The notes under the pieces: generated by a model
Seen by the model: only the letters and a program-made list of their open reading frames with translations
Told to the model about the DNA's origin: nothing
The model's database searches: none
Position numbers and translations under genes: made by a program
Virus record (IMG/VR): IMGVR_UViG_3300025030_000038
Coordinates: 1-64,000 of that record
Length of the DNA: 64,000 bases
Reading direction: 5' to 3' (one strand)
DNA from: a virus
In this document: in pieces, positions 2,175 through 61,098 of the stretch
Numbering within the stretch: the stretch's first letter is position 1
How the letters are laid out: every line of letters begins with the position of its first letter

Positions 2175-2867
2175 ATGAAGCAAAAGGGACCCATACCCAT
2201 GGAGAAACTGTGCTCCCAATGTGGGATTTTGAAGCCAGCTGTGGAATTTGGTCCAGATAAGCGAGCAACCAGTGGCCTGAGACCTGAGTGCAAAGAATGT
2301 CGTAAAACCTACTACAGGGCAAACAAGACGAGTATTATCGCCAAGGCTACAGATTGGGCCCGGAGGAATAGGGGAAAAGTCAAAGCGAATCATTTAGCTT
2401 GGAGAAGAGCACACCCAGAAGAAATTCGTGTACGGGACCTTGCTTGGAAGGCAGCCAACCCCGAAAAGGCTAGGTCTGTGGCCCGCGCATCTGAGACTCG
2501 TTGGAGAGCCAACCACCCTGTAGCAGCAGCTGCTAAGGATCAGAGATCCCGGGATCGTAGGGACCAATGTGATGCCCATATTACGGATGAGGAGATGCAT
2601 GCCACCCTCCAGGAAGCTTTTGACCAATCCCTGGGTATTTGCACCTATTGCTTGAAACCTTTTGACAACACCCATACAGGTCGGGCAACTGTAGACCACA
2701 TTATTCCTCGGTCTTTGGGAGGCCCAACAGTCTCTGGCAATGTGGTGATCGTTTGCGGGCGCTGTAATTCCAAAAAAGGGAATAGAGGTATCTTCGGGGT
2801 GATCGGTCCCAGGCCCTTGTTGCTAGTAGCCTTGTTGGGGCCAGAAATTGAGGCAATCCCAACATGA
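2175..2867 (+). CDS. free-standing HNH endonuclease
   Basis: The product is 230 aa. The N-terminus has a CxxC...CxxC ribbon (CSQCG, CKECR) common in phage HNH proteins, followed by a basic, repetitive helical region rich in W, R and A. The C-terminal HNH core has CTYC, then a DHIIPRSLGG segment, then CGRCNSKKG. It probably cuts DNA and promotes its own spread. It sits on the plus strand between minus-strand genes, as expected for an inserted homing gene. A second ATG at 2199 (MEKLC) is an alternative start. The stop overlaps the next ATG. Confidence 0.85.
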   Translation: MKQKGPIPMEKLCSQCGILKPAVEFGPDKRATSGLRPECKECRKTYYRANKTSIIAKATDWARRNRGKVKANHLAWRRAHPEEIRVRDLAWKAANPEKARSVARASETRWRANHPVAAAAKDQRSRDRRDQCDAHITDEEMHATLQEAFDQSLGICTYCLKPFDNTHTGRATVDHIIPRSLGGPTVSGNVVIVCGRCNSKKGNRGIFGVIGPRPLLLVALLGPEIEAIPT

Positions 2868-3442
2868 TCCCACCAGCAACCATCTCTCAATCACTACGTC
2901 ATTCGGCCGGGTTTTCGGGAGGTCCCACTTATGAGATCCTCTGCCAAGCAATTGGCAATGCTTTGGTCACATGGCTGCCCACAGTGACCCTTACAGGGGT
3001 CACCACAGGAGTTATTGGGGCTGGGACTGTGACGGGCACGTTGACCTTTACTGGGTTGCTACCAGCGGTGCTGGCAGCATTGACAGGAGCTGGACTCAAT
3101 GGCCAAACCGTTCAAGGTCTAGCCACTGGGCTGGTTAACGGGTTGACCGTTCTTAATGGTCTGACATACCTGGGGACATCCACTGGCGTGGCTACAGGAA
3201 CTGATGCCACGTTCGTGACGGTGGCCAACACTACATCCCTCGCGTCTATCCTCCAGGGGGTCCACGCCTCCCTGTGCTCCCCTCAAGGGGGAACCGGGTC
3301 ATCCGTACCCGGGCTTTACACAGGGATCGCTAATGCCATTGGGACGATAGTCAGTACCGGTATTGGAACTGGGTTGGTCGCTCCCGTGGGCCCGGTAGGA
3401 CCAAGTTCGTCAGCGGGAACCTCCCTAAGCCATCCCGTTTAG
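2864..3442 (+). CDS. Gly/Thr-rich protein, possibly virion associated
   Basis: This 192-aa protein is rich in G, T, V, L and A, with repeated TG/GTG-type stretches. A helical N-terminus (about 20-45, including YEILCQAIGNALVTWL) precedes the repetitive part. It starts inside the HNH stop codon (ATGA). Such composition is common in phage structural or fibre-like proteins, but no domain was recognised and the role is unproven. Its 3' end overlaps the convergent minus-strand gene by 4 nt. Confidence 0.6.
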   Translation: MIPPATISQSLRHSAGFSGGPTYEILCQAIGNALVTWLPTVTLTGVTTGVIGAGTVTGTLTFTGLLPAVLAALTGAGLNGQTVQGLATGLVNGLTVLNGLTYLGTSTGVATGTDATFVTVANTTSLASILQGVHASLCSPQGGTGSSVPGLYTGIANAIGTIVSTGIGTGLVAPVGPVGPSSSAGTSLSHPV

Positions 3443-4101
3443 GTCTGCTTGGCCCAATACATTTCCATGCCTTGAACCAGTTGCCCAGACAGTCCTGTAT
3501 TCAAGGTAATCAGGTAGGTGGCTCGCTCGGTGTTCCCAGTGGGGACGTAGACCTGATAATGCTTGTCCTCCACCTTGTGGAGGACCTTTAGGGCATCCTG
3601 GACATCCTCAAGTGGCACTGGGGTTCCATGTGGGGGAGTTACAAGGCTGCGTCCCAATCGGCGTAGCGAAGGAGCCCGCTTGAACTGAGAGAGAAGTCCC
3701 TTTTCCCGTAGGGCGGCTAGGACCTGTTGGAAGGCTTCCTCGATAGGGTCCCGCCGCTTGAGTCTTCGGAATTCATCCGTCCAGAAATGCTCTGTCAGTG
3801 TGACGATCTTATCTGATTGGGACAGCTGGAGTGTATAGCGGTCAATGAAGGGATCTGGCCCATTGGGAGTGAAGGCTTTCCCTGGGGCTACGTCCACTAC
3901 CGTAGCAAGTAGGCCCTCCTTCCCGACTTGTACCCGATCTGGGCCAATACCAATATCCCTGCGGAGGGTCACGGTATCCCCCACTTTGAAGGGGGGCCAA
4001 GATTTCTCCCCAGCCTGCCTCAGTAGGGGCAGCAATTGGGCCCGAAGGGCGGGATTGGCATGGGCCAACCTAATGAGCCTGGAGCGGAGAGTTGGGGGCA
4101 T
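3439..4101 (-). CDS. hypothetical protein with LIRLAHANPALR N-terminal tag
   Basis: The product is 220 aa. The first 30 residues contain an amphipathic leucine/arginine helix (LIRLAHANPALRAQLLPLL) of a type I recognise at the N-termini of unrelated phage proteins. Residues 38-110 look like a beta-rich KOW/SH3-type segment (FKVGDTVTLRRD, EGLLATVVDV), followed by a helical and beta C-terminal part. The function is unknown. The N-terminal tag may be a packaging or processing signal, which is speculative. Confidence 0.65.
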   Translation of the reverse strand: MPPTLRSRLIRLAHANPALRAQLLPLLRQAGEKSWPPFKVGDTVTLRRDIGIGPDRVQVGKEGLLATVVDVAPGKAFTPNGPDPFIDRYTLQLSQSDKIVTLTEHFWTDEFRRLKRRDPIEEAFQQVLAALREKGLLSQFKRAPSLRRLGRSLVTPPHGTPVPLEDVQDALKVLHKVEDKHYQVYVPTGNTERATYLITLNTGLSGQLVQGMEMYWAKQT

Positions 4102-4124
4102 AACAGGCCCAATTGATAGAACGG

Positions 4125-4406
4125 TTAGGTAGGCTTCTTGGGAAGTGCCCCTCTGACGATTGGGGCTCCAATGCGGTCATCTCTATCGTCCAGGAAGTCC
4201 CGGTACAGTTCGGCTTCACCACAGCATTCACATTCTTCCTCGGGGAGAAGCCAGCATCGGCAGGTCGGGCATTTAGTCCGAAAGGTATCAAGCTCCTTAT
4301 TGAGCTGTTTGGATTCTTCTTGGAGCCCTTTGATGCGGTCTTGTATTTCTACCTTGATCGCTTTGAGACGGCCCTGGATCTCTGTAATGTGCTCTTTAGA
4401 CATCAT
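4125..4406 (-). CDS. coiled-coil protein with a zinc-ribbon
   Basis: The chosen start at 4406 forms an ATGA overlap with the upstream stop; 4403 is an equally good ATG. The 93-aa product has an N-terminal coiled coil (about residues 3-40, heptads of I/L with K/E) and a CPTC...CECC cysteine cluster that could bind zinc. It is part of a run of translationally coupled small minus-strand genes. The function is unknown. Confidence 0.7.
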   Translation of the reverse strand: MMSKEHITEIQGRLKAIKVEIQDRIKGLQEESKQLNKELDTFRTKCPTCRCWLLPEEECECCGEAELYRDFLDDRDDRIGAPIVRGALPKKPT

Positions 4407-9657: not shown

Positions 9658-10455
9658 ATGAAGGCGCACCTACTCGTAATCGACCCTCAGCAGGATTTCT
9701 GTTCCCCCAAGGGTTCCCTGTTTGTTCAGGGTGCCGATAAGGACATGTCCCGGTTGGCCCTGATGGTCAAGCGGCTGTCCGGGAAGCTCAACGACATCCA
9801 CGTCACCCTGGACAGCCACCGCAAGGTGGACATTAGCCACCCGATGTGGTGGCGTGACAGCTCGGGCAAGCACCCGTCGCCGTTCACGATGATTTCAGTC
9901 TCGGACATGGTGAACGGTCTCTGGACCACGACACAGCCCGGCGCCTACAAGCGCAGCCTCGCGTATCTCAAGGCTCTGGAGACGGGCAAGCGATACCCCC
10001 ACGTCATCTGGCCGGAGCACTGCCTGATTGGGGACGAGGGGCACAATATCGCCCCAGAACTCTCGGAGGCAATCCACGAGTGGGAGGCCAAGCGGTACGG
10101 GATGGCGGACTTCGTGACCAAGGGTAGCAACCCCTGGACCGAGCACTTCTCGGCTGTTCAGGCTGAGGTGCCAGATCCTGAGGACCCCTCAACCCAGATC
10201 AACGTTGGTTTGATTCGGACCCTGGAGGAGGCGGACTTCATCCTGCTGGCAGGTGAGGCCCTCAGTCACTGCGTAGCAAATTCCGTTAGGGACGTAATTT
10301 CCTCCTTCTCGGACCCTAAGTATGTGGAAAAGATCGTGTTTTTGACCGATGCGAGCTCAAACGTCACTTCGTTCGAGAAGTACGGAGAGGACTTCATGCG
10401 GGACATGGTTGCCAAGGGCATGAAGACTTCCACCACCACAACCGTGCTCACCTGA
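9658..10455 (+). CDS. pncA: nicotinamidase / isochorismatase-family hydrolase
   Basis: The 265-aa product has the isochorismatase fold signatures: Asp at VIDPQQDFC (residue 9), a metal site with DSHRK and a WPEHCLIG motif, a catalytic Lys candidate in VTKGSNPW, and the nucleophile Cys in LAGEALSHCVANSV. In PncA these form the D-K-C triad that deamidates nicotinamide to nicotinate in NAD salvage. It is longer than bacterial PncA (about 210 aa). A promoter and good ribosome-binding site precede it. Together with NadE at 60226 it gives the phage two NAD salvage steps. Confidence 0.8.
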   Translation: MKAHLLVIDPQQDFCSPKGSLFVQGADKDMSRLALMVKRLSGKLNDIHVTLDSHRKVDISHPMWWRDSSGKHPSPFTMISVSDMVNGLWTTTQPGAYKRSLAYLKALETGKRYPHVIWPEHCLIGDEGHNIAPELSEAIHEWEAKRYGMADFVTKGSNPWTEHFSAVQAEVPDPEDPSTQINVGLIRTLEEADFILLAGEALSHCVANSVRDVISSFSDPKYVEKIVFLTDASSNVTSFEKYGEDFMRDMVAKGMKTSTTTTVLT

Positions 10456-10480: not shown

Positions 10481-11221
10481 ATGCCAATCTTGAATGATGC
10501 AACGATGGAGCAGCACCACATTGGTGGTTCGAGCTTCGGATTCTCTGCCAAGAGAGTCCAGGACCTTGGGGCGACCGAATACACCCTGGTGGTGATCGCC
10601 GCCGACGCGACAGGAAGCGTTCACGGCTTCCAGGACAAGATCGAGGACGTGGTCAAGGCAGTGGTGAAGTCCTGTCGCTACTCGCCGCGAGCCGACAACC
10701 TGATGCTTCGATTCGTGACCTTCAACAGCAACGCAATCAGCGAAGTCCACGGATTCAAGCCCCTCTCGGAGTGCAACACGGACGCCTACACAGGCACCGT
10801 CCAGCCCGCTGGGTGCACCAACCTGTACGATGCCGCCTACTCATGTGCGGGTTCCCTGAACCAGTACGGAAAGGACCTCACTGCGCAGGACTTCGGGGCC
10901 AACGGGATCTTTATCGTCATCACGGACGGTGACGACAACACATCCAAGACCACCCCCACGATGCTCCGGACGGAGATCGCCAAGGGTGTGACGGGAGAGC
11001 ACCTGGAAAGCACCGTCTCTATTCTGGTGGGGGTAAACGTATCTGGGCAAATGTCTGTCCGTCTTCAGGAATTTCAGACTGAGGCTGGGTTTACTCAGTA
11101 TGTTGAAATTGACAATGCCAATGAGAAGAAGCTCGCCAAGCTGGCAGACTTTGTTTCCCGCTCAATTAGCGCACAGAGTACTGCTCTTAACTCTGGGACG
11201 AGTCAGACCTTGACTTTTTAG
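10481..11221 (+). CDS. von Willebrand factor A domain protein (TerY-like)
   Basis: The product is 246 aa with a near-complete MIDAS site: DxTxS (DATGS, about residue 41), a Thr in AGCTNLYDA and an Asp in ITDGDDNTS. Beta strands VVIAAD and GIFIVITDG bracket the fold. An AGGAGAT ribosome-binding site precedes the ATG. With the PP2C phosphatase (14035) and kinase (15222) it makes up the three partners of the TerY-P set described in bacterial Ter stress systems. The vWA protein would be a protein-binding scaffold. Confidence 0.8.
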   Translation: MPILNDATMEQHHIGGSSFGFSAKRVQDLGATEYTLVVIAADATGSVHGFQDKIEDVVKAVVKSCRYSPRADNLMLRFVTFNSNAISEVHGFKPLSECNTDAYTGTVQPAGCTNLYDAAYSCAGSLNQYGKDLTAQDFGANGIFIVITDGDDNTSKTTPTMLRTEIAKGVTGEHLESTVSILVGVNVSGQMSVRLQEFQTEAGFTQYVEIDNANEKKLAKLADFVSRSISAQSTALNSGTSQTLTF

Positions 11222-11236
11222 CCTATCCCGCCAGAT

Positions 11237-11279
11237 AAGGTACCATCTCTGCACAATAGCAGGGGTGCTGAGGTACCTT
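11237..11279. repeat. 8-bp inverted repeat before the HNH-repeat gene
   Basis: AAGGTACC at 11237-11244 and GGTACCTT at 11272-11279 form a perfect inverted repeat across a 27-nt spacer containing GCAC/GTGC. It lies between the vWA gene and the TTG start at 11278 and could terminate transcription or hide the start in a hairpin. Confidence 0.45.
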
Positions 11280-13056
11280 GCATCACAAATCCATTCTCGA
11301 CGGCAAGCAACTAGGTGACTGGGAAGTTCTTTACGAGGTTCCCTGTGACCCTGAAGCTAACACCAAATTCAGATACTACCTATGTAGGTGTAAGTGTGGA
11401 ACCGAAAAACGATTCCACGTCCCCTACCTGAACACAGGCAAGCTCACTTGTTGTGAGGGGTGTCGGGAAAAGGATCGCGAGCAGGAGCACCAACAAGTCA
11501 TCCAACAGATGGTGGGTACCAGTCGTGGTGGGTACACTATCATTGGGTTTTCTGGGTTCAATAGCGCCGGATCTCGTACTTGGGTATGCCGGTGCCGATG
11601 TGGGAAGGAAACCATCTACTCAACCGGACAGTTGCAAGGCACCAGTCATAACCGGATGCAGTGTAAGAACTGCCAGTCAGAAGAGATGGAATTATCCAAT
11701 AGGGTGACCACCTTCATTCCAGAGAGATTCTGGAGGAGGCTCAGGGACAACGCAGTACTTCGGGAAATCACCTTCAGTATTACCCAAGAGCAAGCCTATC
11801 AGGTGTTTGCCAATCAGGGGATGTGCTGTGCTTTGACCGGGGAGCCACTGTGGTTCTCCAGGCTTCGTACAAATTACAACCGGTATACAACTGCCTCCGT
11901 AGACCGTATTGACTCGGACGGCGCCTACACGATAGACAACATCCAGTGGGTTCACAAGGTGGTGAACCAGATGAAGTGGTCTTTGCCACAAAAGGATTTC
12001 ATTTCCTGGTGTTCTAAGATAGGTAGGGGGGCACAAGTACTCCCCTTGGCAGGCAACCACCCATATGAGAAGGCTTTGGTGTTAGCAAAGGCTACAGGGC
12101 TTCGGACCCCAGAGGCATACCGGGGATGGATTGCTCAGGTACATCCAGTTGGGTTACCCCCCGACCCTGATGTGGTGTACAAGGACTCTGGCTGGGAAGG
12201 CTGGGAGAAGTTCCTGGGGACCTGGATCCGTCATAGTGAATCGGGGAAACGTGGCATTGAGTTCCTGCCCTACGAGAAGGCCCGAGAGATGGCAAGGGCC
12301 TCTGGGGCTATGAATAAGAGTCTCTATCTGGAGTGGGCTAAGACAAACCGGGTAACGGGGATCCCACACAACCCAGAACATTACTACAGCCGGAAGGGCT
12401 GGGTCAATTGGGGGGACTTCTTGGGAACGTGGGTTGAGAAACAGGGATGGTTGCCCGTATTCCCGACCTATGAGGAAGCACGAAAAATTGTCCTGGGGGC
12501 AAGGATTCGTACTAGCATGGAGTACGATCGGTGGAACCCAATTTCCCACGGGATGCCATCTAGCCCTAGCTATACATACAAGGGCAAGGGTTGGCAGGGT
12601 TGGGGGGAGTTCTTGGCGACTGGGAATGTGTCTATGAGCGTGAAGACTTTTCTGCCCTATGGAGAGGCCAGGAAGGTGGCCAGAGCAGCTGGGATCCAGA
12701 CCGTGGCAGCCTACAGGCGATGGGTCAAGGCAACCCACCCAGAAGGAATGCCATACAACCCTTCCCTCATCTACGATTCTTGGACAACTTGGACAGAATT
12801 TTTGGGGGCGGAAGTTGTTGCCCCCCAAGAGAAGGTGTTCCTTCCCTACGAGGAGGCCAAGAAGGTGGCTCGGGCAGCTGGTATCCGGGGGCAGGCACAT
12901 TACCAAGAGTGGTTCAAGAAGGAAAGACCGAAGATGCTGCCCTCTAGCCCAGACCGGATCTACAAGGGCAAGGGGTGGGTCAATTGGAAGGATTTCCTCG
13001 GAACTGTACGGGTTGGCAAAGCTTCGGTGATTGTCCCTGCGGGGAGCCACGGTTGA
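11278..13056 (+). CDS. HNH-type endonuclease fused to phage-integrase repeat units
   Basis: The product is 592 aa from a TTG start (a later ATG would lose the first cysteine ribbon). Residues 35-60 and 95-135 hold two CxCG...CxxC ribbons. Residues about 180-235 contain CALTGEPL, a VDRIDSDGAYTIDNIQWVH core and NQMKWSL, typical of HNH/NUMOD-type homing enzymes. From about 260 to the end there are five copies of an approximately 55-residue unit (YEKA..A, WxxxxxPxGxPxxP, YKGKGWxxWxxFLGT), which I recognise as the phage-integrase repeat unit. It probably binds DNA through the repeats and cuts with the HNH core. It interrupts the vWA-PP2C-kinase block. Confidence 0.8.
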   Translation: MHHKSILDGKQLGDWEVLYEVPCDPEANTKFRYYLCRCKCGTEKRFHVPYLNTGKLTCCEGCREKDREQEHQQVIQQMVGTSRGGYTIIGFSGFNSAGSRTWVCRCRCGKETIYSTGQLQGTSHNRMQCKNCQSEEMELSNRVTTFIPERFWRRLRDNAVLREITFSITQEQAYQVFANQGMCCALTGEPLWFSRLRTNYNRYTTASVDRIDSDGAYTIDNIQWVHKVVNQMKWSLPQKDFISWCSKIGRGAQVLPLAGNHPYEKALVLAKATGLRTPEAYRGWIAQVHPVGLPPDPDVVYKDSGWEGWEKFLGTWIRHSESGKRGIEFLPYEKAREMARASGAMNKSLYLEWAKTNRVTGIPHNPEHYYSRKGWVNWGDFLGTWVEKQGWLPVFPTYEEARKIVLGARIRTSMEYDRWNPISHGMPSSPSYTYKGKGWQGWGEFLATGNVSMSVKTFLPYGEARKVARAAGIQTVAAYRRWVKATHPEGMPYNPSLIYDSWTTWTEFLGAEVVAPQEKVFLPYEEAKKVARAAGIRGQAHYQEWFKKERPKMLPSSPDRIYKGKGWVNWKDFLGTVRVGKASVIVPAGSHG

Positions 13057-13067
13057 GAGTAAGGATA

Positions 13068-13085
13068 TATGCTAGAGAAAGCATA
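13068..13085. other. short hairpin after the HNH-repeat gene
   Basis: TATGCT and AGCATA pair across a 6-nt loop, 12 nt after the stop codon. No T-run follows, so a factor-independent terminator is not supported. Confidence 0.35.
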
Positions 13086-13145
13086 CCGAGAAAAGACGTT
13101 CTGACATCCCATTCCCAAGCAGCCTAAAAAGGGAGTAACTTGAAC

Positions 13146-13775
13146 ATGCATCCCCACACTCACATTGAAGGCTCCCAAACAGCGTGCATTGAGTGTGGGG
13201 GGCATCGTACCCTTGTCAATCAGTACAGGGAAGCTGAGGGTCTGGATGGGCCGGTGGTTGTTCGCCGGTTCGTCTGTCTTCCCTGTTATGATGCCCTGCC
13301 CCTGGGGGCAAAGCTGTTTGACCAGAGCTTCAAGGCCCAATCGCAGGAGGAGTCTCCTGCCAAGACCCATGTGGCCAAGAGGTCCCTCCCAAAGGTTCCC
13401 AAGCAGGTCACTAAGACCACCCTCACCACGCCCCCAGAGCAGCCAGTGGCCGCAAGTCCTGCCAGGAAGCTCCTGGACTACATTCTCAAGCAGTCCAGGA
13501 AGGGCAATGCTCGTCAAGGCATCCAGCATGTACTGGAGGTCACTGACGATTGGATGCGGGAGGCCCGTTGGGGGGACTGCGGTGCTCTCCTGAATGATGC
13601 CGACCCAGCGCAATTCAGTGTCACCATGTCGCTGGGGCTGCTGGCGGCATGCTATCCCTGTCGGGCACTCACGAAGGAACCCAGACAGCGGTTCATTGAG
13701 GCTCTCCGTACGCACCTGAGTAGGACTCGGCCACAGGACATGGAGATTTTGATGCAGGGCTTGGAGGGGCCATGA
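13146..13775 (+). CDS. hypothetical protein with N-terminal zinc-ribbon
   Basis: ATG 13146 follows a GGGAG ribosome-binding site; a TTG at 13140 is in frame. The 209-aa product has CIEC (about 15) and CLPC (about 48) pairs forming a ribbon, a Lys/Pro-rich linker (about 65-100) and a helical C-terminal domain. It lies between the vWA gene and the phosphatase/kinase genes. Function unknown. Confidence 0.65.
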   Translation: MHPHTHIEGSQTACIECGGHRTLVNQYREAEGLDGPVVVRRFVCLPCYDALPLGAKLFDQSFKAQSQEESPAKTHVAKRSLPKVPKQVTKTTLTTPPEQPVAASPARKLLDYILKQSRKGNARQGIQHVLEVTDDWMREARWGDCGALLNDADPAQFSVTMSLGLLAACYPCRALTKEPRQRFIEALRTHLSRTRPQDMEILMQGLEGP

Positions 13776-14038
13776 AGTTTGCACCCCACCAAAAATACGG
13801 GTTTGAGATTCTTGACCTGTGTAGCCGGATTCACGGCTCCGTGATCCATTCTGGTAATTCCTATCCCAATGCCGCCCTCCAGTTGTGGGCTGACTGGTTG
13901 GCATGGCGAGTCCAGGATGGAGTATGGGGCAAGACAAAGCCAGATGGCAATGAACGATACGACAATGCCATACGGGCACTAGCCGAGGCCACAATGGCTA
14001 TGGCATACGACCACATTCGCAAGGAGACCACTCCGTGA
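13772..14038 (+). CDS. hypothetical protein, 88 aa
   Basis: The small, mostly helical protein is coupled to both neighbours by ATGA-type overlaps. Trp and Ala residues are frequent (ALQLWADWLAWRV). It sits directly before the PP2C gene and may belong to that unit. No domain was recognised. Confidence 0.65.
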   Translation: MKFAPHQKYGFEILDLCSRIHGSVIHSGNSYPNAALQLWADWLAWRVQDGVWGKTKPDGNERYDNAIRALAEATMAMAYDHIRKETTP

Positions 14039-14844
14039 ACACGAACGCTTACTTCGCTCTTGGTAAGTCCCACACAGTCTGTCAGGACTATGCCGAGTCC
14101 CGTCTTGAGGGGGTAGACCCTATTCAGGTCATGGCAGCGGTATCCGATGGTTGTTCATCCAGCCCTGATACGGACTTCGGGTCTCGGTTCATGGCACGGG
14201 CTGCTATGGTGGCTGGCGTGCATGGGACCCCTACGGCTATCTGGAATAGAGCCAAGGCATCGGCCCAATCGCTGATGTTGATGCCAGAGAGCCTCGATGC
14301 GACCCTCCTCACAGCGCGTGTACTGGGAGACCGGCTATGGCTCTCCGCCTATGGAGACGGGGTAATTGCGGTCCAGTTCAAGGACGGTAGCAGACAGACG
14401 TGGTCCATCTCGTTCCCTGGGGATGCCCCGGCGTACATGAATTACCTGTACAATGAGCGACGGCTCAAAGCGTACCTCAACCAGTATGGGGTGCGGGTGG
14501 TGGATTGCAGGATCACTGATCCCAAAGCTAACCCCGTGTCTTGGGCAGAGGAGCGACAGGTTACGGAGTCCGAATACTCGTGGGCTACCGACATGCCCAT
14601 GGCTGACATCCAGAGTGTCACCATCTGCTCGGATGGGGTCAGGTCATTCAGGCGGACCACCCCTACGGGGGCCACCGAGTCTGTGCCCCTCCAGGATGTA
14701 CTGGACCAGATCATGGCAATCAAGAGTTCCGCAGGGGAGTTTGTAGTGCGGCGGATGCGCCGGTTCCTGTATGACTTCTGCCCCAAGAACGGGTGGGTCC
14801 ATGACGACGACGTGGCGGTTGCTACGATCTTGAATGGAGTATAG
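14035..14844 (+). CDS. PP2C-family Ser/Thr phosphatase
   Basis: The product is 269 aa from a GTG start overlapping the previous stop. PP2C motifs appear in order: VSDGCSSSPDTDFGS (metal-binding Asp and Gly), AYGDGV, ICSDGVRSF and the C-terminal HDDDVAVATI (the usual DDxT/S metal site). It should dephosphorylate Ser/Thr residues with Mn or Mg. The kinase gene 377 nt downstream is the likely opposing enzyme. Confidence 0.85.
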   Translation: MNTNAYFALGKSHTVCQDYAESRLEGVDPIQVMAAVSDGCSSSPDTDFGSRFMARAAMVAGVHGTPTAIWNRAKASAQSLMLMPESLDATLLTARVLGDRLWLSAYGDGVIAVQFKDGSRQTWSISFPGDAPAYMNYLYNERRLKAYLNQYGVRVVDCRITDPKANPVSWAEERQVTESEYSWATDMPMADIQSVTICSDGVRSFRRTTPTGATESVPLQDVLDQIMAIKSSAGEFVVRRMRRFLYDFCPKNGWVHDDDVAVATILNGV

Positions 14845-14847
14845 CCA

Positions 14848-15219
14848 ATGCAAAAAGACTACATCAACGAAAAATCCGAATACCTTCTGGTCATGGTTCA
14901 GAGGGACCGAGAGACCGGCCAAGAGTTTGTCATTGACAGCGGGATTAAGGTGGAGTCTCTCAAAGCAACCACCCTTGAGGAAGCCGATGCGGAGGCCCAG
15001 TTGTGCCTCCTAGGGGATGAGCGTGGCTATAGGGGGTACTTGAACGATGACGGTGAATATTCTCTGGAGTCAGCCTTCCTCGTCAAGAATATTGGGCCCA
15101 TGCCAATAGCTGCCATGAAGAGTGCATACCGGCATTCCCTTGAGTTGGAACGTCGAGCCAGTCAGGAAAACAAGGAGCGGGCTGAGTTTGAGCGTCTCAA
15201 GGCCAAGTTTGGGGGCTGA
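14848..15219 (+). CDS. hypothetical protein, 123 aa
   Basis: It lies between the PP2C and kinase genes with gaps of 3 and 2 nt, so it is probably in the same operon. The N-terminal half is beta-rich (YLLVMVQRD, FVIDSGIKV) and the C-terminus is a charged helix (ASQENKERAEFERLKAKF). It could be a substrate or adaptor of the phosphatase/kinase pair. No domain was recognised. Confidence 0.65.
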   Translation: MQKDYINEKSEYLLVMVQRDRETGQEFVIDSGIKVESLKATTLEEADAEAQLCLLGDERGYRGYLNDDGEYSLESAFLVKNIGPMPIAAMKSAYRHSLELERRASQENKERAEFERLKAKFGG

Positions 15220-15221
15220 CG

Positions 15222-16907
15222 ATGAAGGTCCAAATCCAAGGCGGTAACCTAGTCTCACTGACCCAGAAGGATTTTCTGGCGTCCGGAGGTGAGGGCAACA
15301 TTTTCGTCATTGGTGGGACCACCTACAAGGTCTACTCGGATCCCACGAAGATGATTCCTGTGGGCAAGATCCAGGAACTTGCAGAGATCAAGGACCCACG
15401 GGTCATCAAGCCCGAGAAGGTCTTGCTTGACCCCAAAAACAGCAAACCCATTGGGTTCACATCGAAGTTTGTCCACAACTCGGGTGCCCTCTGCCAAGTG
15501 TTCCCCCGAGCTTTTCGGGACCGGAATGGCATCACCCCTGGAGACATTGGGGAGCTGGTCAATAAACTCCGATCCCTTGTCTCGAATGTGCACGCTGCCA
15601 AGTCCCTGATTGTGGACCTGAATGAGATGAACTTCCTGCTTGGGCAGCGGATGGAGGACATTTACGCCATTGACGTGGCGTCCTACCAGACCCCGCACTA
15701 TCGGGCTACGGCTCTCATGGAGTCAGTCAGAGACCGTCACATGAAGCCCGGGGAGTTCACGGAGGGGACGGACTGGTTTGCCTTCGGGATTCTGAGCTTC
15801 CAGATGTTCATTGGCATTCATCCCTACAAGGGGACCCACCCATCCGTGAAGGGCCTTGAGGAGCGGATGCAGAACAATCTGTCCGTCCTAAACAAGGATG
15901 TGCGGGTACCCCAGACCTGCTATGCCTTCAGTGCCATCCCCAAGGCGTATATGGACTGGTACAGGGCCATCTTCGAGAAGGGGCAGAGGGTTGCCCCACC
16001 CGGAGAGCAGGGGGTTGTGGTGGCGGTCATGGTGCCAACCAATGCAACCCTTGGCACAAAGGTACTGGACATTCAAGAGATGCACTCCTTCCCCTTCGAC
16101 GGCGATATTCTTGGTGTGTGGGATGACGTGGTGGTCACGGAGAAGACCGTGTACTACAAGGGCAGGCAGATTGGCCCCTCCGCCAAGAACACTCGTGGGG
16201 TGGGTTTCACTAAGGGGGGGAAGCCCGTGGTAGCCTCCCTCCAGGGGGTCACCCCTACGTTGTTCGATGCTGGGGCCAAGGTCAACGTGCCTTGTGGTCT
16301 TGTGGGGGATGGGCTGACATCCTATGATGGGCGCCTCTACCTGAAGAATGGGGACAAGATCGTCACGATGAGCCTCATGGAAGTAGGGGCGGACCAGAAG
16401 GTACTGGCAGCCCCAGAGATTGTCGCCCACACGTTGGAGCATGCTACCAAGTTGTTTGACGGTGTGGCAGTGCAGAACCTCCTGGGGTCTACCTACGTCT
16501 CGGTGTTCCCGACAGCGGGAGCCAGTTACCAGATTAGGATTCCGGAGCTGGATGGTACGAAGCTCCTTGATGCCAAGTTCGACCGTGGTGTGCTCATGGT
16601 TCTGTGTGCCAGAAATGGTGTCTATGAGCGGGACATTTTCCGTCTGGACGAAACGATGACATCCTATGATATCCGAGTGGTGCCCGATGTCACTCCCTCT
16701 GGATTGAATTTTGTGACCCTGGATTCTGGGGTATGTGTGTGCCTGACTGAGGAGGAGAAACTGGAAATGTTCTCGGCCCGTATGGGTTCCACAGGCATCC
16801 GAGTTGTGGAGGATGCCGTTCTCGGAGGGGATATGAAGCTCTTCAAGCGTAACGGGAAGGTCCTGTTCGCTCGTGGGAGACGTCTCTACAGCCTGTCTCT
16901 CAAGTAG
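15222..16907 (+). CDS. protein kinase-like protein with C-terminal beta-propeller-like region
   Basis: The product is 561 aa. The N-terminal third has a glycine loop (ASGGEGNIF, about 20-28), an ATP-binding Lys (YKVYSD, about 36), a catalytic-loop equivalent with Asp and Asn (VDLNEMNFLL, about 133-142), a DFG-position Asp (IDVASYQ) and the kinase motif TDWFAFGILSFQM. Residues about 265-561 are repeating beta strands that could form a propeller sensor. This architecture matches kinases of TerY-P triads (vWA, PP2C, kinase). Substrates are unknown. Confidence 0.75.
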   Translation: MKVQIQGGNLVSLTQKDFLASGGEGNIFVIGGTTYKVYSDPTKMIPVGKIQELAEIKDPRVIKPEKVLLDPKNSKPIGFTSKFVHNSGALCQVFPRAFRDRNGITPGDIGELVNKLRSLVSNVHAAKSLIVDLNEMNFLLGQRMEDIYAIDVASYQTPHYRATALMESVRDRHMKPGEFTEGTDWFAFGILSFQMFIGIHPYKGTHPSVKGLEERMQNNLSVLNKDVRVPQTCYAFSAIPKAYMDWYRAIFEKGQRVAPPGEQGVVVAVMVPTNATLGTKVLDIQEMHSFPFDGDILGVWDDVVVTEKTVYYKGRQIGPSAKNTRGVGFTKGGKPVVASLQGVTPTLFDAGAKVNVPCGLVGDGLTSYDGRLYLKNGDKIVTMSLMEVGADQKVLAAPEIVAHTLEHATKLFDGVAVQNLLGSTYVSVFPTAGASYQIRIPELDGTKLLDAKFDRGVLMVLCARNGVYERDIFRLDETMTSYDIRVVPDVTPSGLNFVTLDSGVCVCLTEEEKLEMFSARMGSTGIRVVEDAVLGGDMKLFKRNGKVLFARGRRLYSLSLK

Positions 16908-16914
16908 GAATCAA

Positions 16915-17298
16915 ATGAGTCTCATTCATGCTCGTTTTCGAGATGGCACCTGGGTATATCGACTCTGGTCTAGTACCGCCGACGCCTATTTCACTGGGGA
17001 CTTGAGTGATGTAGATGTCAAGCGCATTCTCTTGGATGACTGCACCGTTCGGGACATCCGGGAGGGTCGAGCCGATCAGGCAATCGAGGAACGGCTGGCA
17101 CGAACCCGCATAAATGGAACCTCTTCCTTCAGGGGGGACACCCAGGATATTGGTGGGTCTTGGGAGACCGAGAGATGTACCTGTGGTGATTTTCACCACA
17201 CGTTTCAACCCGGCAGCGACTTGGATGGGTTGTGCGAGCAATGTGGAGAGCAGGGAGAGGACTCCTCTCATGGCCCCCCGTGTGGGACCCATGATTGA
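16915..17298 (+). CDS. hypothetical protein with C-terminal zinc-binding region
   Basis: ATG 16915 follows a GTAGGAA ribosome-binding site 7 nt after the kinase stop. The 127-aa product has a beta-rich N-terminus (LIHARFRDGTWVYRLW) and a C-terminal Cys/His cluster (CTCGDFHH...CEQCG...C). Function unknown. Confidence 0.65.
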   Translation: MSLIHARFRDGTWVYRLWSSTADAYFTGDLSDVDVKRILLDDCTVRDIREGRADQAIEERLARTRINGTSSFRGDTQDIGGSWETERCTCGDFHHTFQPGSDLDGLCEQCGEQGEDSSHGPPCGTHD

Positions 17299-17722
17299 GG
17301 TGGTGGCAGGCATATTGATTGAAGACGGCCGGGTCCTTCTAACCCAACGGAGCCGAAACAGCCCCATGCCTTGGACCTGGAACTGCCCGGGAGGCAAAGT
17401 GGAACCTGGGGAGACCCATCAACAGGCATTGGCTCGGGAATGGTTGGAAGAGATCGGATGCTACGTGGGGGTAGGAAACTACGTTTTCCAAAGTGATTTC
17501 GAGGGCTATCGAGTTAGTCACTTCACTGTCCACCATTCTCCAGCCGGGCAACTACCCAAGGCATTGGTGGATGAGGGGATCGGGTGGTTCACGGCACAGG
17601 ATTTGGCGGGGTTAACTTGTACCCGCTCCCTAAACCACTGGAAGAAGACAGTAATCCAGATCCTGGAGACATACGGGGTCGGGTGCATCATTGGTGTTTC
17701 GGACGATTTCCCTAAAAAGTAG
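17291..17722 (+). CDS. Nudix hydrolase (MutT-like)
   Basis: The product is 143 aa with a complete Nudix box, GGKVEPGETHQQALAREWLE followed by EIG (about residues 32-55), fitting Gx5Ex7REUxEExGU. It should hydrolyse a nucleoside diphosphate linked to another moiety, such as an oxidised dNTP. ATG 17291 gives the usual MutT start (EVVAGILIEDGRVLL) and overlaps the previous stop. The substrate cannot be told from sequence. Confidence 0.85.
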   Translation: MIEVVAGILIEDGRVLLTQRSRNSPMPWTWNCPGGKVEPGETHQQALAREWLEEIGCYVGVGNYVFQSDFEGYRVSHFTVHHSPAGQLPKALVDEGIGWFTAQDLAGLTCTRSLNHWKKTVIQILETYGVGCIIGVSDDFPKK

Positions 17723-17760: not shown

Positions 17761-18336
17761 ATGACCAAGCTCTACTCGGCCTACCCGGACATCGCGGACA
17801 TGATTGGTCCGAACACCAACATCAACGAGGTCCCGAAGTTCCCACATTCCTCTTACGAGGTGCATGTGCCGTGGACCAGCCTGGAGCGAACCATCCTGGA
17901 TCACACCACGGAGTATGGGCTCGATCTCAATCCTGATTTCCAGCGGGAGCATGTCTGGACCACACGTCAGCAGATCGCGTATGTCGAATACATGCTCATG
18001 GGGGGAGAGGTCTCCAAGACCCTGGTGTTCGGGGCGGACAACTGGACCGGGGGCAAGCTGGGTAACTACCAGCTCCTGGACGGCAAGCAGCGGCTTGAAG
18101 CCGTTCGCGCATTCCTCCGAGATGAGATTCCTGCGTTCCGCCGCACCAAGAGTGAGTTCCTGGGGAAGCTGAATTTCACCTCCCACGGTTTCAACTGGCG
18201 GGTGGTGGACCTCCGGACTCGGGCCGACGTGCTCAAGCTGTATCTGGCCCTGAACTCGGGGGGTACCCCCCATCAGCCTGAGGAACTCCAGCGGGTCCAG
18301 GGCCTCCTGGCCATCGAGCTCAAGGGGGGCAAGTAA
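17761..18336 (+). CDS. DUF262 (ParB-like fold) protein, copy 1
   Basis: The product is 191 aa. It has DUF262 motifs: LNPDFQREHVWTTRQQIAYVE (about 56-76), a GG with a nucleotide-binding-like loop, LLDGKQRLEAVRAFL (about 112-126) and a C-terminal LNSGGTPH motif. DUF262 is the N-terminal nucleotide-binding/hydrolase domain of GmrSD-type restriction enzymes. Here it stands alone, without the HNH (DUF1524) half. It is followed directly by a related copy. Confidence 0.8.
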   Translation: MTKLYSAYPDIADMIGPNTNINEVPKFPHSSYEVHVPWTSLERTILDHTTEYGLDLNPDFQREHVWTTRQQIAYVEYMLMGGEVSKTLVFGADNWTGGKLGNYQLLDGKQRLEAVRAFLRDEIPAFRRTKSEFLGKLNFTSHGFNWRVVDLRTRADVLKLYLALNSGGTPHQPEELQRVQGLLAIELKGGK

Positions 18337-19146
18337 ATGGCCAAGACCAACTTCGGACAGATTCCAGACACCCGAACCCCTACTGAGCAGTACCTTGCCC
18401 TCCTGGACCGGGAACGGATGGAACGTCGCCGTTTGGGGGATCGCCCCATCCTGAGTACAAACAAGGACTTTGCTGAGATCCAGGCAGGTTACAAAAACCT
18501 CCGGAAGCTCGTCACGGAAGATGAGTTCAAGGCCATCGAGGCTCAGGGGTGGCGGGCCATCCCTGAGGCATACGACGCCAAAGAGGCGGAGTACGATGCC
18601 TGTGGGGCTCCCCTCTCCGAGAGGGCCCCCAAGTACTTCTGGGACCTCAAGCAGTTTCCACATGCAAACTATGCGATAGATGTGGACTGGGGTTCCCTGG
18701 AGGAGCAACTTGCTCGGTGGTCCAAGTCGCACAGCCTGAACCTGGATCCGGACTTCCAGCGTGCCCATGTCTGGACCGTGGACCAGCAGAGTGCCTATGT
18801 GGGATACCAGCTACAAGGTGGGGAGGTGGGTAAGAACATCATCTTCAACTGTCCCTCCTGGGATACAACAGCTGACGGTTCCATGGAGATCGTGGATGGC
18901 AAGCAGCGCATGGAGGCGGTGCGGAAGTTCATGCGGAACGAGCTCCCGGTGTTTGGTCGCACTCTCTCCCAGTGGTCGGGTCGGTTGCGCTACATGGCAG
19001 GCTTCAAGTTCCATGTGGTCGCGTTGCATACCAGGGCCGAGTTGCTCCAGCTGTACCTCAACATCAACGCGGGAGGCACTCCCCACACGGACATCGAACT
19101 GAATCGGGTCCGGGCCATGCTGGCAAAGGAAATGGGCACCAAATGA
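18337..19146 (+). CDS. DUF262 (ParB-like fold) protein, copy 2
   Basis: The product is 269 aa and starts immediately after copy 1 stops. The C-terminal 180 residues repeat the same motifs (LDPDFQRAHVW, YQLQGGEVGKNIIF, IVDGKQRMEAVRKFM, LNINAGGTPH). An N-terminal extension of about 85 residues is new and helical. The pair is a tandem duplication. The lack of a nuclease domain suggests a regulatory or dominant-negative role, or an NTP-dependent function; this is inference. Confidence 0.8.
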   Translation: MAKTNFGQIPDTRTPTEQYLALLDRERMERRRLGDRPILSTNKDFAEIQAGYKNLRKLVTEDEFKAIEAQGWRAIPEAYDAKEAEYDACGAPLSERAPKYFWDLKQFPHANYAIDVDWGSLEEQLARWSKSHSLNLDPDFQRAHVWTVDQQSAYVGYQLQGGEVGKNIIFNCPSWDTTADGSMEIVDGKQRMEAVRKFMRNELPVFGRTLSQWSGRLRYMAGFKFHVVALHTRAELLQLYLNINAGGTPHTDIELNRVRAMLAKEMGTK

Positions 19147-19924: not shown

Positions 19925-19946
19925 CGGAGATGGGTGTAAAGTGGGC

Positions 19947-21158
19947 ATGCCCCTCCAACTCGTCTACGCACCAGAACAGCCCCCCAAGCAGTTCACCAAG
20001 GCTATCTTCCTAGCGGGCCCCTCCCCCAGGAACCCCACGCATCCCAATTGGCGCATTGAGGCCCTCAAGATCCTGACTGCCCAAGGCTACGATGGGGCAG
20101 TGTTCATTCCCCTTACCAGGAATGGGACTGGGTATAACTACGATGCCCAGGTCAACTGGGAAACCGAGTGCCTGAACCTGTCGGATGTGATTGCCTTCTG
20201 GGTTCCCAGGGACATGGAGTCTCTTCCTGGTTTGACCACGAATGTGGAGTTCGGGTTGTGGTGTAATTCAGGGAAGGCTGTGCTGGGATACCCTACGGAT
20301 GCAGAGCATATGAGGTATCTGGCGTACCACGCAGGTCTGGAGGGCATGCCAGTACACGAAACCCTGGAAGACACCCTGCGTGCGGCCGTCAAGCGCATTG
20401 GGGAGGGTGCTACACGGGTAGGGGGGGAAAGGAACGTCCCCATCCACATTTGGAACCTGCCCCACTTCCAAAATTGGTTCCGGATGCAGAAAGCCGCCGG
20501 GAATAGGCTTGATGGGGCCAAGCTCCTATGGTCGTTCCGGACGGGCCCCAAGAAGAGCTTCACCTTCTGTTTCGCTCTCAAGGTGGATGTCCATGTGGCC
20601 ATCGAGGGGAGGAACAAGACCAACGAAATCATATTGTCACGACCAGATGTGTCCTCAGTGATTGCGTACCGAAGAGGGGCAAGTTACTTGGACACCGAGG
20701 TGGTCCTGGTACGGGAGTTCCGGAGTCCCGCCAGCACCATGGATGGGATGATCCATGAGGTTCCCTCAGGCTCTTCCAAGGTCAAAGAGGACGAGCTTGT
20801 TGTGGCCAGCCATGAGCTAGAAGAGGAGGCCGGGCTGGTTGTGGATCCTACGCGGCTTCGCCGGATTGGGTCCCGTCAGTTGTGTGGGACCTTCTCAACG
20901 CATCAAGCTCAGGTATACGCCTGTGAGCTTACGGAGGAGGAAATGGCAGCCTTGCGTCAGCAATCCCAGGACGGGGTCATGCATGGCGTGGTTGGGGACT
21001 CCGAGCAGACTTATGTGGAGATTCGCAAGGTTAGAGACCTTTGCGAGTCAAATGATGTTGACTGGTCCTGTATGGGCATGATTCTCACCACGCTCCGGGA
21101 CTCCTACCCTGCCAGTGCCAGTTCGATTGTGGCCCGGTTGCTTGGGCCTTCCCGCTAA
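19947..21158 (+). CDS. nucleoside 2-deoxyribosyltransferase-like domain fused to a Nudix domain
   Basis: The product is 403 aa. Residues about 10-130 match a nucleoside deoxyribosyltransferase-like fold: IFLAGPSPR, NWRIEALKIL, YDAQVNWETECLNLSDVIAFWVPR (read as separate motifs) and TTNVEFGLW with a Glu. Residues about 235-380 form a Nudix domain with a G-x5-E-x7-HELEEEAG box (Arg replaced by His), resembling ADP-ribose pyrophosphatases. The fusion could cleave a nucleoside-like bond and a pyrophosphate in one molecule. A GTG at 19941 is an alternative start. The link to NAD or defence signals is inference. Confidence 0.75.
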   Translation: MPLQLVYAPEQPPKQFTKAIFLAGPSPRNPTHPNWRIEALKILTAQGYDGAVFIPLTRNGTGYNYDAQVNWETECLNLSDVIAFWVPRDMESLPGLTTNVEFGLWCNSGKAVLGYPTDAEHMRYLAYHAGLEGMPVHETLEDTLRAAVKRIGEGATRVGGERNVPIHIWNLPHFQNWFRMQKAAGNRLDGAKLLWSFRTGPKKSFTFCFALKVDVHVAIEGRNKTNEIILSRPDVSSVIAYRRGASYLDTEVVLVREFRSPASTMDGMIHEVPSGSSKVKEDELVVASHELEEEAGLVVDPTRLRRIGSRQLCGTFSTHQAQVYACELTEEEMAALRQQSQDGVMHGVVGDSEQTYVEIRKVRDLCESNDVDWSCMGMILTTLRDSYPASASSIVARLLGPSR

Positions 21159-60225: not shown

Positions 60226-61098
60226 CTACTTCCACCACGTGTCGGTTGGGGTCACGGGAGCCGCTCGCTTGTGGCGAGTTGCCAGGAACCGGGCCTCAAT
60301 GATACGGGCTGCCTCCTCCCCTACGTGGGCACCGGGGCAACCATTGCTAATGGGATACCCCTCCAGGTAGTTGTCGATCTCATCGTAGGAGATGCCCAGC
60401 TCGGTCTCGTCAGCCTGTGCGGGGTTGCCGTCCAGGAGGTCCGCTGTGGGGACCTTCAGGTAGATGGCCGGGTCTGCCCCAAGTTCCTTGAGGAGTCGGG
60501 CACCCTGCCTCTTGGTGAGGCCAGCAAGGGGAAGGATGTCTGCCCCACCGTCACCGAACTTAGTGAAGAACCCAGTTACGGACTCAGCCGCATGGTCCGT
60601 ACCAATGACCAGCAGGTTCTTCTGCCCCCCAATAGCATATTGGGCCACCATTCGCATTCGGGCCTTGATGTTGCCCTTGTGATAGTCGGTCAGGTCTTCC
60701 CCCATGGACTTCTGGAAGGTTAGCGTGGCAGAATCCACTGCATCTTTGATGTTGTAGGTGACGGTCACATCGGGCCGGATGAACTGGAGTGCCCGCTGGG
60801 CATCTACTTCATCCTTCTGGGTCCCGTGGGGGAGCCGGACAGCGACGAAAAATGCCTCATAGTCTTTCGTGGGCCCCTGATAGGCTGGGTGGTCAATGAG
60901 GAGGTTGACCGCCATCTGGGCAAGCCTGCCAGCCAGGGACGAGTCCTGGCCTCCGCTGATACCGAGAACGTACCCCCTGGCCTTCGAGGCCACCAAGTAG
61001 TCCCTCAAGAACTGGACTCGCTCCTTGATTTCGGTTGCTGGGTCAATTGTGGGCTTGACCCCGAGTTCTTGGATGATCCGTGCTTGCATTGTTGTCAT
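60226..61098 (-). CDS. nadE: NAD+ synthetase (NadE)
   Basis: The product is 290 aa, typical of ammonia-dependent NadE. The PP-loop is [16 protein letters not shown] (about 44-58), with [21 protein letters not shown] (ATP and NaAD contacts) and [11 protein letters not shown]. It converts nicotinate adenine dinucleotide to NAD with ammonia and ATP. No glutaminase domain is present. With the nicotinamidase (9658) the phage encodes two steps of the deamidated NAD salvage route. Confidence 0.9.

Follow-up and report, generated by a model that had tools for sequence, protein, structure and literature searches.

TerY-P is a triad of a vWA protein, a PP2C phosphatase and a kinase, and the kinases described for it carry a C-terminal zinc ribbon or OB fold (PMC11090510). 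Stand-alone TerY-P-like triads are reported to act against phages (PMC7699616; PMC11090510), one form of TerY-P defending against T7-like phages (PMC7699616). Phages are also known to rebuild NAD+, via NARP1 and NARP2 and via the NAPRTase–NMNAT sets of jumbo phages (PMC12774641; PMC13232231; PMC7824862), NARP1/NARP2 being defined by the Adps and Namat or the NAMPT and NMNAT pair. In the survey of jumbo phages, NAD+ synthesis and Ter genes appear as separate topics, and neither nicotinamidase nor PP2C is mentioned (PMC7824862); nicotinamide, NAD, von Willebrand and kinases are unmentioned in the main text of the huge-phage genome paper (PMC7162821). The locus described here would share with the NARP1/NARP2 and jumbo-phage sets the restoration of NAD+ by phage-encoded enzymes, whereas its entry point would be the deamidation of nicotinamide, with a kinase and a phosphatase attached. 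We found no description of the PncA–vWA–PP2C–kinase combination in the open-access literature, although an unseen report is possible, and likewise found there no description of kinase, phosphatase or vWA genes inside NAD+-salvage operons.

The DNA analysed here (hereafter, the window) comprises 64,000 nucleotides of a viral record and has 100% identity to the 485-kb sequence of an uncultured huge phage (LR745208.1), a record that we take to come from the published paper presenting huge-phage genomes. A sequence-only reading of the window had proposed that the vWA (10481–11221), PP2C (14035–14844) and kinase (15222–16907) genes form a block resembling TerY-P. All three genes are real, lie at these coordinates and retain their active-site residues. 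The proposed start of the block did not hold, as it begins one gene earlier, with a predicted nicotinamidase gene (pncA, 9658–10455). The complete block, all on the plus strand, consists of PncA, vWA, an HNH endonuclease gene (11278–13056), two genes of unknown function (13140–13775 and a small one at 13772–14038), PP2C, one more small unknown gene separating PP2C from the kinase (14848–15219), and the kinase.

The fourth member was seen in each of the relatives found by tblastn, i.e., in two more huge phages and one gut fragment, where a gene of the isochorismatase fold precedes the vWA gene. Its profile matches solved nicotinamidases (2h0r, the best, at 6.4e-14, and 2wt9 at 6.4e-9), and both the Asp–Lys–Cys catalytic triad (D9, K155, C205) and the metal ligands D52, H54, H61, and H121 are invariant in 45 sequences. 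In 43 out of 58 loci of stand-alone cellular relatives of this protein, e.g., in Janthinobacterium and Desulfoluna, PncB lies within 500 bp of it.

Taken alone, the vWA protein of the window scores below the cut-off of the Pfam VWA model (E=1.4e-3), which is matched by 20 out of 45 members of its family (best 1.8e-8). Its AlphaFold2 model (pLDDT 90.6) has an integrin I domain as the best PDB match (Z 18.6, 179 residues aligned, 2.4 Å), and the MIDAS positions D42, S46, T113, and D149 are invariant in the family; hence, the assignment as a MIDAS-bearing vWA protein is well founded. Such proteins usually mediate metal-dependent contacts. The C-terminal tail is Ser-rich, flexible in the model and conserved from phages to bacteria, and thus is a candidate docking or phosphorylation site. 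In a gut fragment (L006), a DUF2828/DUF7788 protein with a vWA-type domain of its own is encoded directly upstream of the module (2849–4300, minus strand).

The PP2C-family Ser/Thr phosphatase of the window exceeds the Pfam PP2C_2 cut-off by itself (E=2.8e-10), and its metal-binding Asp/Gly motifs, D38 G39, G107 D108 G109, D200 G201, and D258 D259, are invariant. The kinase alone yields a weak Pfam match, while Pkinase is matched by 40 out of 48 members of its family (best 5.5e-12); thus, the single vWA and kinase proteins of this phage lack cut-off-level matches because they are too divergent. In the AlphaFold2 model of the kinase (pLDDT 90.5), the N-terminal domain (residues 1–265, 15222–16016), compared with the PDB separately, matches AMPK and PknB with Z 19.2 over 232 and 238 residues, respectively, at 3.2–3.5 Å. 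Residues G22 G23, K36, D132, D151, D184, and R256 are invariant, and E52 and N137 are kept at 90% or more, as read from the family alignment, a strict motif regular expression over all kinases being too narrow. These data confirm the kinase domain, on which the sequence-only reading depended. The C-terminal tail (residues 282–561, 280 residues, 16065–16907) has 28 strands in the model, that is, seven blades of four strands, and therefore is predicted to be a seven-bladed β-propeller, in agreement with the propeller-like tail noticed earlier. LRRK2, in which a WD40 propeller comes after the kinase domain, was the best Foldseek match by E-value in a search where the propeller was not queried by itself. 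The LanL/LanKC function suggested by NCBIfam matches was rejected, since the kinase domain alone accounts for them.

The HNH gene, which had been read as splitting vWA from the rest of the block, is likewise real: it contains degenerate repeats, has PHROG endonuclease matches down to 2.6e-18, and has nothing similar at this place in close relatives. HNH-related sequence was found in three of the fetched loci, and in none of the close relatives; on contig L152, vWA and PP2C are separated by approximately 30 bp. The gene reads as a homing-type insertion specific to this lineage and is not a part of the module. The three unknown genes inside the block have no homologues in the fetched loci. Thus, the unit has been loosened in this phage, while all four module genes are still open.

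Several other features of the window are worth recording. The kinase gene is directly followed by a MutT-type Nudix gene (17114–17722) and then by two adjacent genes (17761–18336 and 18337–19146), each encoding solely a GmrSD_N (DUF262-type) domain, with the nuclease half absent; this pair is possibly a decoy or an inhibitor of GmrSD restriction. A gene with a Nuc_deoxyri_tr2 domain and a long C-terminal part without a Pfam match lies at 19941–21158. The minus strand carries 20 tRNA genes (29161–62818), among them five leucine tRNAs in a row with five different anticodons.

Viral scans with single proteins retrieved the window's own phage only, and alignments were required for wider matches. 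Scans with the PncA and kinase alignments yielded 80 and 65 loci, respectively. All four genes were present in 73 out of the 80 loci found via PncA and in 62 out of the 64 analyzed loci found via the kinase, and some of the loci lacking the full set are located at the ends of contigs. Being seeded with PncA or the kinase, these scans gauge cohesion of the unit, not its frequency among phages. Collapsing at 90% kinase identity left 89 distinct four-gene instances, mostly viral, with some contigs of metagenome-assembled genomes (MAGs); in 84 of them, the genes follow the PncA–vWA–PP2C–kinase order on one strand, and the median spacing between PncA and vWA is 44 bp. We treated L152, L153, L155, and L156, the MAG contigs whose modules are the closest, as probable pieces of phages and left them aside. 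Homologous triads therefore occur in many phages, as the earlier reading required.

In the phage loci, the most common neighbors outside the module are PncB (34 loci), Nudix (27), and NadE (25), followed by NADAR (14) and NadD (12). The NADAR genes process ADP-ribose; one example is L063, 3974–4453. When the whole records of 49 module carriers were searched, 32 had NAPRTase, 32 had NAD synthetase, and 34 had adenylyltransferase-fold genes. The distance to the module is at most 10 kb for NAPRTase in 16 out of 30 records, where chance would give 3.6, and for NadE in 19 out of 29, where it would give 3.2; counts this high did not arise in any of 100,000 simulations. In the reverse search starting from phage PncB, 15 out of 48 loci of at least 20 kb contained the triad, all 15 with PncA, and 11 loci contained PncA without the triad. 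This search and the distance test within genomes stand in for a control set of huge phages without the module. Roughly two out of three long phage PncB loci have no triad, so that NAD+ salvage does not strictly require it, and these counts make the triad look like a PncA-associated add-on to NAD+ salvage.

In the window's phage, the NAD+ synthetase gene nadE, for the final step of the salvage route, is confidently assigned (60226–61098, minus strand; 367.6 bits for the NF001979 equivalog at the cut-off of 250, and 7e-65 for PF02540) and lies 43 kb from the module, and the genome has one nucleotidyltransferase-fold gene, at 146.8 kb (position 146821). The whole-record search detected no NAPRTase-family gene; hence, this phage would depend on the host PncB. 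The absence of a detectable NAPRTase and the remote nadE speak against linking the module to salvage.

The unit is found on cellular contigs as well: in Bacteroidota (L177, L191, L256), Patescibacteria (L164, L270–L274), and Gammaproteobacteria (L158, L167). Several of these contigs also carry housekeeping genes, those of ATP synthase among them. In all three groups the unit adjoins the gene for NrtR, the NAD-metabolism repressor, as is the case for most bacterial units, and often pncB; the NrtR DNA-binding domain exceeds the Pfam cut-off in six Nudix genes adjoining bacterial units, and PncB or NadE adjoin L164, L271, L273, and L274. Some phages (L027, L131) have kept NrtR. Two patescibacterial loci (L275, L276) carry a divergent, rearranged unit, PP2C–kinase–PncA–vWA, next to PncB. 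Few of the sampled genomes have a kinase homologue at E<1e-20 (12 out of 247, 2 out of 369, and 11 out of 285 in three groups), and some of these homologues are partial. Three Bacteroidota kinases of the same length (L254, L257, L258) stand alone, without PncA, vWA, or PP2C, and adjoin WD40-repeat-like and glutamate-racemase-like genes. Phage and bacterial units interleave in the kinase tree, where L005 joins the Bacteroidota and L073 the Patescibacteria. More than one transfer between phages and bacteria has therefore occurred, the tree giving no direction. The best reading is that the unit has been exchanged between bacteria and huge phages.

Comparison with TerY-P gives a mixed result. The composition (MIDAS vWA, PP2C, Ser/Thr kinase) and the gene order vWA–PP2C–kinase are those of TerY-P, the order being preserved in the same 84 out of 89 instances and, with the insert, in the window. 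In hhalign comparisons with L259, a bacterial triad of the conventional type, the kinase domain and PP2C matched with probabilities 98.7 and 96.6, respectively, and vWA matched weakly (E 9e-4). The differences are the divergent vWA, the predicted β-propeller in place of the zinc ribbon or OB fold of TerY-P kinases, and the constant nicotinamidase partner in the context of NAD+ salvage and NrtR. Given the different tail and the added PncA, the unit is better described as TerY-P-like than as an ordinary TerY-P triad; the resemblance proposed from the sequence thus stands for the trio, its order and its homology, and fails for the type of the kinase tail and the gene content.

What the surroundings of the unit have in common is the deamidation route of NAD+ salvage, i.e., PncA followed by the Preiss–Handler enzymes PncB, NadD, and NadE, together with NrtR. 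These four enzymes convert nicotinamide to NAD+, and NrtR represses NAD+-salvage genes according to the NAD+ status. A kinase and a PP2C phosphatase in one operon imply reversible protein phosphorylation. We consider it rather probable, with appreciable room for doubt, that the unit is a phosphorylation-controlled NAD+-salvage module; the lone Bacteroidota kinases of the same family argue against it, and the gene neighborhood speaks for a common pathway, not for a particular direction of regulation.

Under the salvage reading, nicotinamide released when NADases cleave NAD+ would be converted by PncA to nicotinate, from which PncB, NadD, and NadE of the phage or the host would restore NAD+. The kinase would phosphorylate at least one protein of this route, or the conserved vWA tail, and PP2C would remove the phosphorylation. 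The vWA protein may be a metal-dependent adaptor joining the enzyme, the kinase, and the phosphatase, and the propeller may select the kinase target or sense a ligand, so that the module would set the flux through PncA quickly. In bacteria, where the unit adjoins NrtR, it would supplement transcriptional control with a fast post-translational one. Huge phages would have acquired the unit, mostly without NrtR, and it might keep NAD+ available during infection when host NADases act; it probably is of benefit when NAD+ is depleted by NADase defences of the host or by replication. A stronger version, in which an undescribed kinase/PP2C/vWA system directly controls the NAD+-salvage flux in both bacteria and huge phages, the latter switching recovery on in response to NADase immunity of the host, is put forward tentatively, as we hold it somewhat less probable than its negation.

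The anti-phage activity reported for stand-alone TerY-P-like triads (PMC7699616; PMC11090510) suggests another reading, a TerY-P-like immune system directed against competing phages, with the kinase arm as the effector and PncA sensing or removing the nicotinamide that NADase defences produce. The NADAR genes nearby would fit it, as would weak PADLOC matches of the kinases to the PD-T4-6, MAD6, and MkoA models; however, the latter reflect the kinase domain in general, and we do not assign the unit to any named defence system. Moreover, the neighbors are NAD+ biosynthesis genes and NrtR rather than nucleases or other effectors, and some bacterial copies have housekeeping genes around them, such as those for ATP synthase. 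We regard an immune role as unlikely.

Kinase folds are able to act on small molecules, and, with NADAR and Nudix genes close by, the kinase-fold protein could modify a small molecule of the pyridine-nucleotide pool or ADP-ribose-type immune signals, PP2C acting on the product. The full set of protein-kinase motifs and the PP2C and vWA partners point to protein phosphorylation instead, which makes such chemistry quite improbable.

The sequence-only reading had favored a phage copy of the phosphorylation switch of Ter stress systems, sensing or altering host stress signalling. It draws on the three TerY-P domains in the TerY-P order and on the homology of the kinase and PP2C to the conventional-type triad. 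However, no ter genes, nor DNA restriction or processing families, were recognized among the recurrent neighbor families, which were not searched for ter by name, the kinase tail differs, and the conserved partner is a nicotinamidase in a conserved neighborhood of PncB, NadE, NadD, and NrtR. The link to Ter stress is thus not supported, and we hold it to be very improbable. Finally, it is hardly credible that nothing but common descent and chance keeps the four genes together: the sequenced records are partly related, but the 89 instances differ at the 90% kinase identity level, span phages and several bacterial phyla, and have different flanks.

The salvage reading places kinase/phosphatase/vWA triads, whose purpose has otherwise only been guessed, in a concrete pathway, that of NAD+ salvage. 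It suggests that the bacterial NAD+ supply is subject to post-translational control beside the known transcriptional control by NrtR, and adds to the biology of huge phages a widespread module that may counter NAD+-depleting immunity.
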